Shown piece after piece: positions 48,481-54,795 of a stretch of DNA of 64,000 nt; the stretch's first letter is position 1; every line of letters begins with the position of its first letter. A program made the position numbers and the translations under genes. Under the pieces are notes generated by a model. It was not told where the DNA came from, did not search any database, and saw only the letters and a program-made list of their open reading frames with translations. Where the stretch lies: contig NC_015152.1 in assembly GCF_000190435.1 (NCBI RefSeq), positions 2,238,458 through 2,302,457 of the forward strand, given 5' to 3'. This DNA comes from Sphaerochaeta globosa str. Buddy (lineage in GTDB: Bacteria; Spirochaetota; Spirochaetia; Sphaerochaetales; Sphaerochaetaceae).

Positions 48481-48489
48481 AATAGAAAA

Positions 48490-48511
48490 CCGCCTGCACA
48501 TTGGCAGACGG
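48490..48511 (-). terminator. Terminator after the PIN-domain gene
   Basis: Minus-strand arms CCGTCTGC and GCAGGCGG (one G-T pair), 6-nt loop, then TTTTC. It lies just past the stop at 48519. Confidence 0.75.
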
Positions 48512-48518
48512 TAGAGGG

Positions 48519-49631
48519 TCATAAAAGTATCAGCAGTAGGAGAATCAACAGCAACAGCACAAGGGGAAGTGCTATGAGGCCGATTTTGAACAGCTTCTTT
48601 CGTTGTTGCTCAAGCCTCTGTGCGACAGTTTGTTTGCTGCGCTCCACCTCGAGCCGTTTTTCCTCTTCCTCGAGTTTACGCTGACGCGCTTCCTCGGCTT
48701 TCAACTCAGCTTCACGTTTCTTCTTGTTTTCATCGACCTGCCTGGCTTCCTGTTCCTTCAAATCAAGGTAACAGCGTCCGCAAAGAACAAAGCCCTCACA
48801 ATCATGGAGATCGTCGTAATAGCTCTCATTGCATTCAGGGCAGATATAGCAACGCTTGAGCTTGCCCTCTTCCACCAGCTTGCACACCACCATGTGATGT
48901 TCATGCTCATGCAGCTCTTGTTTTCTGCCAAGCAATTTCTTCCACCAAGGAAAGGATACGTTGACCTGAGGCTGCTTCTCCAGTTCCTGGGCCAAGCGAA
49001 CGATCCGTTCACTCAAACCTCGGTCCTGTGTGATGAGAAGGAGGCTTTTGTTCGCCCCAACCTGCCTGAACAAAGAAACCAAATGGTCGTCGGCAATACC
49101 GGTACTACCGGTATCACCGATGCGCACCAGACCCCGCTTGGCGAGCTGACGGATTAAATCAGGACGGATGGTGGCGCGGACGCGCACCTCCAGATCCTTT
49201 TCAGGATTGTCCTTCAAGCCGTGAAGCTCTTCCATTGTTTTCTCAAGAATGAGCAACTTCTTCTTGCGTCGCTTGAGAATGGGCTCGGCATTGGTAACAA
49301 AATACAGGAAATAATCCAGCTGGATAATCGGAGCGGTATCGACATAAATTTCGTCGAAGGAGCGCAATTGTGCATCCAGCATCTCATTGTACGCTTCGTC
49401 AGTGGTGGCGAATCGTGAGCGGTCTCCGAGCTTGCATGCAATAATCTCCCGATACAAGATCAGTTCGTTTGCAGCCTTCGCTCCTTCCACCTTGATTCCT
49501 ACACTCCTGAGAATGCTTGCAATCTTCTCTTTGCCAAGGCGGAACTCCGAGCCCAGCACATCAAGTGCATTCTCCGAGGAAATAGTCTCCACCTTGAGAG
49601 CGGGGGCTCTTCTGCCCATTAGTTTTGCCAT
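48519..49631 (-). CDS. Tail-anchored PIN-domain protein with zinc ribbon
   Basis: 370-aa protein of a kind I cannot place. Residues about 94-215 look like a PIN nuclease domain: EIYVDTAPII (D98), EKTMEELHGL (E134/E135), GIADDHLV (D181/D182) and LLLITQDRGLSE (D203), the four acidic positions. A Cys zinc ribbon follows (C261, C264, C267, C284, C287; also C278). Then comes a Lys/Glu-rich coiled coil (about 290-346) and a single membrane helix at the extreme C-terminus (about 349-370), so the protein is anchored by its tail with the nuclease facing the cytosol. It lies 12 nt after topA and is probably co-transcribed. An RNA-turnover role is guesswork. Confidence 0.8.
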   Translation of the reverse strand: MAKLMGRRAPALKVETISSENALDVLGSEFRLGKEKIASILRSVGIKVEGAKAANELILYREIIACKLGDRSRFATTDEAYNEMLDAQLRSFDEIYVDTAPIIQLDYFLYFVTNAEPILKRRKKKLLILEKTMEELHGLKDNPEKDLEVRVRATIRPDLIRQLAKRGLVRIGDTGSTGIADDHLVSLFRQVGANKSLLLITQDRGLSERIVRLAQELEKQPQVNVSFPWWKKLLGRKQELHEHEHHMVVCKLVEEGKLKRCYICPECNESYYDDLHDCEGFVLCGRCYLDLKEQEARQVDENKKKREAELKAEEARQRKLEEEEKRLEVERSKQTVAQRLEQQRKKLFKIGLIALPLVLLLLILLLLILL

Positions 49632-49643
49632 GATATGGTTCCA

Positions 49644-52187
49644 TCATTCCTTCGCACGCTTGGTGCGGATGTGCTCGACAGCTTCATCGAGCGTAAGCGA
49701 AAGTGCTTTCTCTTCATCTTTCTTGTATGCATCGGGCAGTGCGATATTCTCCTTGCCCGCTTTCAGGTAGAAGCCATACCGACCGGTTGCCACCGAAACC
49801 GCTTCACCTTCAAACTGGCCAAGGTCCTTGACCGTAGAAGCCTTAGCCGACCTTGCACCGCCCTTTTTGCCCTTGGCACCACTCTTCTCAACTTCTTGGG
49901 AAAGCAATGCAAGAGCCTCCTTCAAGGTGATCGAGAAAAGCTCTTGGTCATGATCGGTCTTTTTCAGGTTCCGTGTCTTATTGTTGCTTGCAATGTAGGG
50001 CCCGTACTTGCCTTTGTAGGCAAGCACCTCATTGCCATCCTCATCCTTTCCCAGATTTCTGGGAAGACTGAGATAGCGGTTGGCCAGCTCCAATTCCTCG
50101 GATCGGTTGGCATCCTGCACCCATTTGGGTATGCTTGCGCGTTTGGCATCCTTTCCCTCGCCTTCCTGCCAATAGGGCCCGAACCTGCCGTTCATGACCT
50201 TCACCGCCTCACCCTTGACAGCACCACTGCCCAACGTTACCGGCTGTTGTTTCTCCTTGCCGTTGGCGATCAGGGTTTTGACATCCTCATCGGTGATATT
50301 GCCCGGTATCCAGGAAAGCGGCAAGGAAATGAACGCCTCATTTGCATCAATGACATACGCACCGTAGGGCCCTATCATGACCGGGTTCTTATCGCTGATA
50401 TGGGGCAGTATCAACGTCTTGGAAACTACCTTGTTATCCTGCTTAAGTTGTAAGGCATTCTGGCTCAACAGGCCGCTTTCACCACAATAGAAGGAACTGA
50501 GAAACACTATCTTATCGAGTTCTCCCGATGCAATCTTGTCCAAGCCATCTTCCATCATCGAGGTAAAGTCATAATCGACGAACTGGGGAAAATTGGTCTC
50601 CAGAAATTGGCACACGGCAAACCCGATGAAGGTCGGAGCCAAGGCAGACCCTTCCTTGATTGCATAGCGACGGTCCAAAAGCGTCTTAATGATGGTAGCA
50701 TAGGTTGAAGGACGCCCGATTCCCCGTTTCTCCAGCTCCTGCACCAAGTAGGCTTCCGTATAACGGGCAGGGCTCTTGGTTTGGTGCTCGACTTCAACAA
50801 GGCTTGCAAGCGGGCAGACTTGGCCTACCTTCATGGCAGGCAATAAGGTTTCCTTGTCTTCCAAAGCGGCATCGGGGTCATCCGACCCTTCCACATAGGC
50901 TCTCAGAAAGCCGGGAAACACAATTTCCGTTCCGGTTGCAGTAAAGGTTCCCTCTCCTGCCTCAAGCGTAACGGTAGTGGTGGCTTTTTTGGCCTCCGCC
51001 ATCTGGCTTGCCAGGGTACGCTTCCAGATCAATTCATACAGGGCAAGCTCCTTGCCGATCAAATGTGTCTCAGAAGGAATAAGGAACCGTTCCCCTGCGG
51101 GCCTGATCGCCTCGTGGGCTTCCTGTGCACCAGCGCTTTTTGCAGCAAAGTAGCGGGCCGAGGGGGATAGGTATTCTTGGCCGTACAACTGGTCCACCTG
51201 ACTTCTGGCGGCCTGCGTTCCCTCCTGACTCAGAGAAGGGCTGTCGGTTCTCATGTAGGTAATGAAGCCGTTCTCATAGAGTTTCTGAGCAATGCGCATC
51301 GTATCAGAGGCACTGATATGCAGTTTCTTAATAGCATCCTGCTGAAGGGTGCTGGTGGTGAAGGGAATGTTAGGCCGGGTGACAAAGGGTTTGCGTTGGA
51401 TATCCTGGACCCTGAACGGCTCTGCCTTCAATTCCTTTACGATAGCCTGGGCTTGCTCCCGAGAAAGCTGGAGCACTTGGCCTTTGGCCTTGTATTGGCC
51501 GCTAATTGAATCAAAATCCTTGCTGTTTGCCAGGCGATGACCTTGGTAGGCTGTCAGCTTGGCTTCAAAATGCTGCTTCTGCTCTGCAAGCAACTCCGCT
51601 TTTGCATCGAAGTAGGTGCTTTGCTGGAACGCAAGCCGCTCTCGCTCACGCTGCACGGTCAAACGCAACCCGACCGATTGCACGCGCCCTGCCGAGAGTT
51701 TTTTATTGGATAACTTTTTCCAGAGAGTCGGCGAAAGCGTATACCCATACAGGCGGTCGATGATGCGCCTTCCCTCCTGTGCCTTGACCAGATTTTCATC
51801 CAGCGGTCTGCCACCTTCCAAGGCTTTGGTTATTGCACTCTTGGTAATTTCGTGAAAAACCATACGCTGGAACGGAATCTTGGGCTTAAGAACCTCAAGT
51901 AAATGCCAGGAAATACTCTCTCCTTCACGGTCCTCATCAGTTGCCAGCAGCAGTCGATCGGCTTTCTTCAAGCTGCTTTTCAACTCCTTGATCAATGACT
52001 CCTTGCCGGACACCACCTCGTAGTCACAAGCGAACTCATGCTCCACATCAATAGCCATCCGATCCTCGGGAAGGTCTCTGATATGTCCTTTGCTCGCAAC
52101 TACCTTGCATGAGGAAGGAAGGAATTTTGTTATCGTCTTGGCCTTGGTAGGCGACTCAACAATGATCAATGTATTGGCATTATCCAT
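49644..52187 (-). CDS. topA: DNA topoisomerase I
   Basis: 847-aa type IA topoisomerase relaxing negative supercoils. TOPRIM domain with VESPTKAKTI and DEDREGESI; active-site segment FITYMRTDSPSLS containing the catalytic Tyr; SAGRVQSVGLRL. The C-terminus carries topo repeat modules (FGPYWQEGEG, KGKYGPYIASNNK, GRYGFYLKAGKENIAL) without Cys zinc fingers. The start at 52187 follows GGAG by 8 nt. A minus-strand promoter TTGACA-N17-TATATG (52226-52254) lies upstream. Confidence 0.96.
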   Translation of the reverse strand: MDNANTLIIVESPTKAKTITKFLPSSCKVVASKGHIRDLPEDRMAIDVEHEFACDYEVVSGKESLIKELKSSLKKADRLLLATDEDREGESISWHLLEVLKPKIPFQRMVFHEITKSAITKALEGGRPLDENLVKAQEGRRIIDRLYGYTLSPTLWKKLSNKKLSAGRVQSVGLRLTVQRERERLAFQQSTYFDAKAELLAEQKQHFEAKLTAYQGHRLANSKDFDSISGQYKAKGQVLQLSREQAQAIVKELKAEPFRVQDIQRKPFVTRPNIPFTTSTLQQDAIKKLHISASDTMRIAQKLYENGFITYMRTDSPSLSQEGTQAARSQVDQLYGQEYLSPSARYFAAKSAGAQEAHEAIRPAGERFLIPSETHLIGKELALYELIWKRTLASQMAEAKKATTTVTLEAGEGTFTATGTEIVFPGFLRAYVEGSDDPDAALEDKETLLPAMKVGQVCPLASLVEVEHQTKSPARYTEAYLVQELEKRGIGRPSTYATIIKTLLDRRYAIKEGSALAPTFIGFAVCQFLETNFPQFVDYDFTSMMEDGLDKIASGELDKIVFLSSFYCGESGLLSQNALQLKQDNKVVSKTLILPHISDKNPVMIGPYGAYVIDANEAFISLPLSWIPGNITDEDVKTLIANGKEKQQPVTLGSGAVKGEAVKVMNGRFGPYWQEGEGKDAKRASIPKWVQDANRSEELELANRYLSLPRNLGKDEDGNEVLAYKGKYGPYIASNNKTRNLKKTDHDQELFSITLKEALALLSQEVEKSGAKGKKGGARSAKASTVKDLGQFEGEAVSVATGRYGFYLKAGKENIALPDAYKKDEEKALSLTLDEAVEHIRTKRAKE

Positions 52188-52225
52188 GCGTTCTTCTCCT
52201 AAAGACACGTGGTCTTAGGTTAACA

Positions 52226-52263: not shown

Positions 52264-53082
52264 TCATTGGGTCAATTGCCTTGGCTCGTGAATGAACTTG
52301 CATACAAACACTCCGTTCTCCCCTGGATTGGGGGAGGTAAACAATCCCCAGGAAGCCATACCATCACCTTTGGTTTCAAAGTGCAATTCTTTTTCCCCTT
52401 TAGGGGAAAGGACGAACGTATAGACTGAGCGGGTCTTGAAAGAGAGAGCCCCCACCTTTGTCTTAACCTCCACGGTATAACGGTCCATGCCAATTTCCAT
52501 GGAAGTGACACTCCAAACAGAAGGAGTGAAATTTGTTGTATTGAAAACTTCAGCATTGGCCCGATACGCTTTCTGTTGTTCACTTTCTCCCTCGAAAGGG
52601 ATTGGCTCGTTGAGCCGATCATCTGAAAGCAAGGGGAATAAGGTATAGGGACGGTCGAACATCCCTTGGATCGTATAGTACGGCTCGGTATAGGTGACCA
52701 AGAGATCAAGCTCTTTGCATTTTCCCTTGTTGTCCTTGTCGGTAAGGTTGATCCAACGGTAGCGACCTTCCCATCCGGTGGTGGAATAGGACTGCTTGGC
52801 AGCGGCTATATCAATATTGCCTGTTTTCCGTGCAGCGACGATCACCTCGTACTGCCGATGGCTTTCCAAAGGCTTTTCGTTGGAGCCCAGGACCACAGAT
52901 GTCTGTCGCACCCGCTGGACGGGCTTTCCATCAACATAGATATCGTAATAGTCGCAACCGGAGACTGCTTCCCAGTTCAGATGCAACTGGTTGGGATATG
53001 CCCCAACCAAATCAACTGCAAGAGGTGCAGCAAACAGAGGGAGCCCGAAACAAAGCAACAAGCATAGTATCCATCGCTTCAT
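52264..53082 (-). CDS. Exported protein with fibronectin type III-like domain
   Basis: 272-aa protein. The signal peptide MKRWILCLLLCFGLPLFA places it outside the membrane. Residues about 22-110 look like an FN3 domain (GAYPNQLHLNWEAVSGCDYYDIYVDG, then YEVIVAAR). The rest (NTTNFTPSVWSVTSMEIG and a long FETKGDGMASWG stretch) is not recognised. Start at 53082; upstream reading overlaps the divergent gene and lacks a signal. No Shine-Dalgarno. The promoter TTGCAA-N16-TATACA would begin the mRNA about 2 nt before the ATG. Confidence 0.75.
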   Translation of the reverse strand: MKRWILCLLLCFGLPLFAAPLAVDLVGAYPNQLHLNWEAVSGCDYYDIYVDGKPVQRVRQTSVVLGSNEKPLESHRQYEVIVAARKTGNIDIAAAKQSYSTTGWEGRYRWINLTDKDNKGKCKELDLLVTYTEPYYTIQGMFDRPYTLFPLLSDDRLNEPIPFEGESEQQKAYRANAEVFNTTNFTPSVWSVTSMEIGMDRYTVEVKTKVGALSFKTRSVYTFVLSPKGEKELHFETKGDGMASWGLFTSPNPGENGVFVCKFIHEPRQLTQ

Positions 53083-53090
53083 ACCGTTAC

Positions 53091-53141
53091 TGTATACACA
53101 GCTGCCCCCTAGTTGCAAGAGATTGGCTGGCCAGCTACTAT
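53091..53141. promoter_or_regulatory. Divergent promoters sharing one palindromic -35 box
   Basis: TTGCAA at 53113-53118 reads the same on both strands. Rightward: 17-bp spacer and TACTAT (53136-53141). Leftward: 16-bp spacer and TATACA (53096-53091). Each predicted start falls 0-2 nt from the ATG of its gene, and neither gene has a Shine-Dalgarno. Confidence 0.55.
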
Positions 53142-53148
53142 CGGTCAT

Positions 53149-54795
53149 ATGACCATACACTTGATCTCCTGCTGCCTCGAAGAGGGCAATCTCAGTTACC
53201 CGCTTGGAGCACTCTGCATCCAAAGCTCCATTCTTGCCCATTACGAAGGCGAGCACTGCCTCCACCACGCATTCACCCTTGCCGACGACCCAATCGTCGC
53301 GGCAAAGTCCCTTGGCATTGAGCCAATGGATGTAGTAGGGCTTTCGGTCTACCTGTGGAATAGAAGCTGGATGGACCTATTCACCCAGCAACTCAAAGAG
53401 AATTCGCCCGCTTGCATACTTTTCGCCGGCGGTCCTGAAGCAACAGCCAATCCCTCTTCCTTTGATTTGGCGCTGTACGACTTCCTCATCCTCGGCGAGG
53501 GGGAAGAGACAGTGCTTGGGGCAATCGATCAGATCAAAACCGGCAAAAAGCCCCAACTTGCGGGAGTACTCTCATCGACTGGTTTCTACAGCCCCGCTCC
53601 CAGCCCCAATCTCGATAGCTTGACTTCCCCTCTTCTCAATGGCCTTGCAGATCCATTTCTGCAACCCGGGGCATCGGTTCTGTGGGAAATGACCCGCGGC
53701 TGTCCGTTCCACTGCTCCTTTTGTTTCGAATCCCGGGGAGAGCGCAGCGTGCGGCACTTCAGTCTGGACCGACTGGAGGAGGAACTCGAGTATCTTATCG
53801 AGCACGAGGTCGGGGAAGTCTATGTGCTCGACCCTACCTTTAATATTGACAAGCAGCGCACCTTGGCAATTCTTTCACTGCTTCAAGAGAAACAGGCATC
53901 GATTCATTTTGTCTTTGAGGTCCGTGCAGAGTTGCTCGATGCCGCCTTAGCCGATGCATTTGCAACCATCAACTGCTCACTGCAAATCGGGTTGCAGTCA
54001 AGTGACAGCGCGGTTCTCAAAGCGGCAAACCGAAATTTTAATCCCTCCCAGTTTGCCAAGAAAATCCAGCTGCTCAACCAACGAGGCATTCCGTTCGGCT
54101 TGGACCTCATTATCGGCCTTCCCCATGACAGTTTGGCGGCATTCACCAAAAGCTTGGACTATGCAATGCTGCTAAAGCCCAGCAACCTCGATATTTTCCC
54201 CCTCTCCCTGCTTCCCGGCACCCTAGTCAGCGACCGGGCAGCCTCCTACGGTATTGTCAGCATGACCCAGGCCCCGTATACCATTCTCCACTCCCCCACC
54301 TTCAGTGAAGAGGATCTGAAAAAGGCCATGCGCCTCAAACACAGCTGCGACCTCTTCTTCACCCAGGGACAAGCCGGTATGTGGATGCATGCATTTTGTG
54401 AGGCAACCGGGCAACGACCTTCTTCCCTACTCACCTTGTTCGAATCCTACCTCTCCTTTTATACAGGGAAGACACAGACTGCAGAGTCGGAATTGGATAT
54501 TTTTGCTGTACAGGAAGCCTTTGTCGGCAGTCTTTTGAAAAAGTTGGGAAAAGAGCAGTATCTAAAGCCGCTGCTCTCCTACATGGAACTGCATCAGGGG
54601 ATAGCCTTTTTCCATATGTATGAACAAAGCCCCACGATCCACCTCTTCTATCCGTTGGAAGAACTTGCCTCACTCGATACGATGTCACTTGATGATTTTT
54701 TGGCCGCTCATCCCTACACACAAGAGGTTGAGCTATCCATCTATGCCAATGATGAGGGTGAACTCAATTTTCTGCCTGTTTCCGAGCAGAGTTAG
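53149..54795 (+). CDS. Radical SAM protein with B12-binding-like N-terminus
   Basis: 548-aa protein. The first ~130 residues resemble the cobalamin-binding-type Rossmann domain (DVVGLSVYLWN, FAGGPEAT, FLILGEGEETV) without the DxHxxG motif. The radical SAM motif is C185-x3-C189-x2-C192 in TRGCPFHCSFC. A long C-terminal half resembles DUF4080-type extensions; I am not sure of that family. The substrate is unknown. The ATG at 53149 has no Shine-Dalgarno and a promoter ending 7 nt before it. A TTG at 53113 would sit in the -35 box. Confidence 0.82.
   Translation: MTIHLISCCLEEGNLSYPLGALCIQSSILAHYEGEHCLHHAFTLADDPIVAAKSLGIEPMDVVGLSVYLWNRSWMDLFTQQLKENSPACILFAGGPEATANPSSFDLALYDFLILGEGEETVLGAIDQIKTGKKPQLAGVLSSTGFYSPAPSPNLDSLTSPLLNGLADPFLQPGASVLWEMTRGCPFHCSFCFESRGERSVRHFSLDRLEEELEYLIEHEVGEVYVLDPTFNIDKQRTLAILSLLQEKQASIHFVFEVRAELLDAALADAFATINCSLQIGLQSSDSAVLKAANRNFNPSQFAKKIQLLNQRGIPFGLDLIIGLPHDSLAAFTKSLDYAMLLKPSNLDIFPLSLLPGTLVSDRAASYGIVSMTQAPYTILHSPTFSEEDLKKAMRLKHSCDLFFTQGQAGMWMHAFCEATGQRPSSLLTLFESYLSFYTGKTQTAESELDIFAVQEAFVGSLLKKLGKEQYLKPLLSYMELHQGIAFFHMYEQSPTIHLFYPLEELASLDTMSLDDFLAAHPYTQEVELSIYANDEGELNFLPVSEQS

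Follow-up and report, generated by a model that had tools for sequence, protein, structure and literature searches.

Directly behind topA in Sphaerochaeta globosa str. Buddy lies an open reading frame for a 370-aa protein, and the locus raises two questions: what kind of enzyme this protein is, and whether its place beside a DNA topoisomerase gene reflects a functional bond. We analyzed it within a 64,000-nucleotide stretch of the genome, hereafter the window, starting from an earlier note made from the sequence alone. The observation as a whole (ORF, domains, tail and topA neighbour) was confirmed, and the ORF is a genuine gene under strong purifying selection. Set against near relatives, the PIN and zinc modules show dN/dS values of 0.003-0.033 in the comparisons that permit an estimate (dS is saturated in several), and because of these values the pattern lies well beyond chance; in the same comparison the linker formed by residues 219-244 evolves fast. 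The features of the locus are collected in Table 1.

Table 1. Features of the topA-PIN locus, in window coordinates.
Feature	Position	Strand	Basis or remark
PIN-nuclease ORF, 370 aa	48519..49631	-	ATG start, TGA stop
topA	49644..52208	-	Toprim, Topoisom_bac, Toprim_C_rpt; 12 nt upstream of the PIN gene
Intrinsic-terminator-like hairpin and T run	48489..48512	-	6 nt past the PIN-gene stop codon
N-terminal helical domain, residues 19-91	49359..49577	-	AlphaFold2 model
PIN domain, residues 92-219	48975..49358	-	Foldseek probability 1.00 to PIN structures; invariant residues
D98 (predicted catalytic set)	49338-49340	-	in PIN domain
E135 (predicted catalytic set)	49227-49229	-	in PIN domain
D181 (predicted catalytic set)	49089-49091	-	in PIN domain
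D203 (predicted catalytic set)	49023-49025	-	in PIN domain
Zinc-ribbon-like module, residues 245-292	48756..48899	-	C264, C267, C284, C287 and invariant C250; conservation; weak zinc-ribbon/RING-type Pfam matches
Charged long helix, residues 293-348	48588..48755	-	AlphaFold2: helix 285-333, then helix 336-369
C-terminal membrane helix, Lys/Arg before it, residues 349-370	48522..48587	-	hydropathy; predicted tail anchor

Family libraries gave little guidance. The protein matched nothing in Pfam or NCBIfam above the curated cut-offs, gave weak matches only in PHROGs and PADLOC, and found no reliable match among PDB sequences, where I-CreI-type matches were weak and contradicted by the predicted fold. 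AlphaFold2 modelled the full-length protein with a mean pLDDT of 82 (87 for residues 84-225), and the top Foldseek ranks were PIN domains at probability 1.00, those of Utp24, SMG6/EST1A, Thermus 3ix7 and AF0591, with modest E-values (best 9e-5) and TM-scores of 0.5-0.6. A PIN fold for residues ~92-219, with its alpha/beta/alpha arrangement, is well supported by the model. The PIN-like domain claimed in the earlier note is thereby borne out, and the outcome named there as refuting it, a prediction with no PIN fold, did not arise.

The acidic positions listed in the note (D98, E134/E135, D181/D182 and D203) were all exact and are invariant in 29 aligned homologs. When L042, a distant relative in a different family of the same class (genome G367) that the family profile finds at E 2e-7, is added to the alignment, D98, E135, D181, T201 and D203 are still invariant, while E134 and D182 are replaced by N, so that only one member of each proposed pair survives. 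The predicted catalytic set narrows to D98, E135, D181 and D203, which are invariant in all 30 sequences and sit at the canonical PIN places: the end of strand 1, the helices after strands 2 and 3, and the end of strand 4. The D-T pair and L-x-T-x-D motif of the family agree with the D-T and L/V-x-S/T-x-D motifs described for PIN proteins (PMC4229260). Human SMG6 came up in a profile search of PDB sequences (E 0.48); its alignment is in register at the E135 region and, far more weakly, at the T-x-D motif.

L042 also bridges the family to the PIN_4 group by sequence. It scores above the Pfam PIN_4 (PF13638) curated cut-off (27.8 versus 21.9 bits), which no family member reaches (best among those scanned singly, 13.4 versus 21.9 bits), and hhalign aligned it with the family over 119 columns with the motifs in register. 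We relied on this bridge because a direct profile-profile alignment against Spirochaetota PIN_4 proteins, for which only three PhoH2-type sequences were extracted, was uninformative. The family thus shares with the PIN_4 group, which includes PhoH2-type and YacL-type proteins, the fold, the four acidic residues, the D-T and T-x-D motifs and the L042 link, but it scores below the cut-off, lacks a PhoH ATPase or TRAM domain, and carries an added zinc ribbon and tail anchor. No PhoH match appeared in the Pfam scan of the PIN protein, which is therefore not a PhoH2 fusion. The L042 protein itself (L042:1465-2418) has an unusual C-terminal part, its PIN domain being joined to GDINGILNGNI-type repeats that match bactofilin weakly (E 0.08). 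PIN_4 matches were present in 132 of 198 sampled Spirochaetota genomes, none of them from family f1, whose sample size is not stated, and none in the genome of the window.

The Cys module claimed for the region behind the PIN domain is present as C264-x2-C267...C284-x2-C287, and these four residues would form a zinc-ribbon-like module. C250, C264, C267 and C287 are invariant, whereas the L007/L035 subgroup has another residue in place of C284, a change which suggests that zinc binding is altered or lost there. In these two loci of genus g4 (L007:5953-7020 and L035:1477-2544), "GMIPDSACI" stands where C284 is lost; G486, of the same genus code, retains C-x2-C. The FYDLN_acid zinc-ribbon model (PF09538) matches 16 of 23 members with E-values no higher than 1 (best 6e-5), extending into the charged helix, and four members scanned singly scored 11.7-15.4 bits against a cut-off of 23.9. 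The module is not a detached C-terminal zinc finger of TopA, an origin we rejected since neither the TopA of carriers nor that of the non-carriers examined has such fingers.

The first two helices of the N-terminal domain are weakly IF2_N/HTH-like (hhalign score 17.6 with IF2_N, where the best among 40 shuffles reached 12.7; probability 8.7%), a likeness that is suggestive only. At the other end of the protein, the charged helix and C-terminal hydrophobic helix read in the earlier note are both found in the AlphaFold2 model. The strongest hydrophobic stretch ends 0-5 residues from the C-terminus in 28 of 28 members with an intact C-terminus (19-residue hydropathy 2.45-3.82), is preceded by a Lys/Arg-rich stretch, and is the only segment of membrane-like hydrophobicity in these members. 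Every complete member is accordingly predicted to carry a single tail anchor at its extreme C-terminus, and the positive-inside rule would place the catalytic part in the cytoplasm.

No entry in the family libraries searched has the order helical domain, PIN, zinc ribbon, charged helix and tail anchor, so the claim that this order was not known holds for the full arrangement; it does not hold for PIN followed by a zinc ribbon. Nob1, an archaeal and eukaryotic rRNA-processing PIN nuclease, has a zinc ribbon behind its PIN domain, as the family does with C264/C267/C284/C287; in contrast to Nob1, the family is bacterial and adds an N-terminal helical domain and a membrane anchor, and nearly all genomes still have YbeY. 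The members scanned matched no Nob1 PIN or zinc-binding model at E up to 10, a range in which HMMER filters drop most matches above ~0.1. YacL is a membrane-bound bacterial PIN-TRAM protein; its PIN domain, which we take Thermus 3ix7 to be, is among the best fold matches, and the two share a bacterial PIN domain at the membrane (predicted here). YacL has N-terminal membrane helices and TRAM, whereas the family has one C-terminal helix and no TRAM match in Pfam. The PIN domains of SMG6/EST1A and Utp24, although the best fold matches, and in the case of SMG6 a weak in-register sequence match, belong to eukaryotic proteins with other partner domains and about 15-22% identity. RNase Y, an endoribonuclease fixed to the membrane that also has a long charged helix, resembles the family in that helix and in the predicted anchor, but its anchor is N-terminal and its core is KH-HD. 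The domain order with a tail anchor is new with respect to these libraries, while PIN with zinc ribbon and membrane-bound PIN were already known, each separately.

Homologs were found in Spirochaetota only: in nine GTDB loci, in 26 of the 60 near genomes, and in six of 393 genomes from the whole phylum, including that of L042; absence beyond the phylum is not proven, since the search of 84,980 species had a single protein as its query, which catches close relatives only. Among Sphaerochaetaceae the gene is present in 34 of 139 genomes and 5 of 22 genera. Within the genus a match is missing only from G024, where topA is cut short by the end of a contig, and the absence there is therefore likely an assembly gap. 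A quick, unrooted TopA tree, with this broken-contig genome left out, needs three presence/absence changes and agrees with vertical inheritance of a gene gained once and lost twice. Conservation is usually stronger in the PIN core than in TopA (69 versus 53% in G328, 76 versus 61% in G486, about equal in G485), as might be expected of a housekeeping enzyme.

topA lies directly upstream on the same strand in every locus with enough upstream sequence (28 of 28 measured). Spacing between the two genes, measurable in 28 alignment members, is -1 to 16 nt for 24 of them and 103-191 nt for the other four. Genomes of the bacterial family without the PIN gene have PAP2-like, Smr-like or other genes behind topA (named by eye from sequence). 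As gene order the linkage is well supported; the adjacency noted earlier is real, 12 nt in the window, but the neighbourhood survey across spirochetes that had been suggested places it in one family only. The hairpin behind the PIN gene would close a topA-PIN transcription unit; terminator-like sites are statistically weak as a class (8 found versus 5.8 expected in shuffles), and the position of this one is fitting. Upstream of topA, a predicted exported protein (52264-53268, minus strand) is kept beside topA in several genera, and a divergent radical-SAM-like gene (53113-54795, plus strand) that overlaps it is likewise a topA neighbour in several genera.

Taken as a whole, the explanation we consider probable is a metal-dependent, tail-anchored inner-membrane endoribonuclease with a housekeeping role. 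In its cytoplasmic PIN domain, D98, E135, D181 and D203 would bind a divalent metal, and the most likely action of this domain is endonucleolytic cleavage of single-stranded RNA. Positioning of the RNA would most likely fall to the zinc ribbon together with the N-terminal helical domain; the long charged helix would keep the catalytic head clear of the membrane, and the C-terminal helix would serve as the anchor. The protein would most likely be made from the topA transcript and act as a chromosomal housekeeping enzyme that processes or degrades RNA at the membrane. RNase Y is present in 136 of 138 genomes and YbeY in nearly all, with and without the PIN gene; the protein therefore replaces neither, and we rejected both replacements. 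As most Sphaerochaetaceae lack the gene, any housekeeping role must be dispensable or covered elsewhere.

Other enzymatic readings fit less well. PIN and FEN-like folds are related, and PIN folds may also cut DNA (FEN-like) or be inactive. That relatedness, the topoisomerase neighbour and a few weak fold matches to viral 5'-3' exonucleases would suit a nuclease acting on DNA structures near the membrane, but the fold comparison ranks RNA endonucleases and PIN_4-like domains highest and no Pfam FEN family matched, which leaves this reading improbable. A VapC-like toxin of a toxin-antitoxin pair is barely credible: the PIN domain is shared, yet VapC structures stand far down the Foldseek list, the ORF listing of the window holds no small partner gene beside the PIN ORF, and its neighbours are topA upstream and, downstream past the hairpin, a separate tetR-like gene. 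A 370-aa anchored protein under strong purifying selection and inherited vertically also speaks against a toxin. With no partner, no convincing PADLOC match, and no relative found in searches of phages, plasmids and viral contigs, we rejected toxin-antitoxin and defence roles.

As to the neighbour itself, gene order makes a functional link to TopA possible. The protein could be a partner of TopA that shares its transcript and cleaves R-loop RNA or nascent transcripts held at the membrane, thereby easing the hypernegative supercoiling produced by coupled transcription, translation and membrane insertion. The tight spacing and unbroken same-strand linkage, held in five genera though genes further downstream change, argue for such a partnership, and PMC9352719 connects E. 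coli TopoI with transcription and the prevention of R-loops. The wider gaps in four members and the many relatives that have the same TopA type without the nuclease count against it, as does the ability of vertical descent alone to preserve gene order, and we consider the partnership unlikely. Alternatively, a general membrane RNase may have been inserted once behind an ancestral topA and inherited along with it ever since. The three changes on the TopA tree, compatible with one gain and two losses, and the failure to find any member away from topA favour this course of events; against it, the downstream neighbours have been reshuffled (the tetR-like gene is adjacent in some genomes only) while the topA-PIN pair has not. 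We regard such inheritance as a serious candidate that falls a little short of probable.

The most specific form of the TopA link, a TopA-dedicated membrane RNase whose cutting of membrane-held nascent transcripts would remove the anchor that generates hypernegative supercoiling, appears quite unlikely. If it were true, one operon would provide two reliefs of supercoiling, by relaxing DNA and by releasing RNA. On the main reading, a group of spirochetes would possess a second membrane-anchored endoribonuclease beside RNase Y. The fixed place of the gene behind topA offers a testable handle on the coupling of membrane RNA cleavage and DNA supercoiling.
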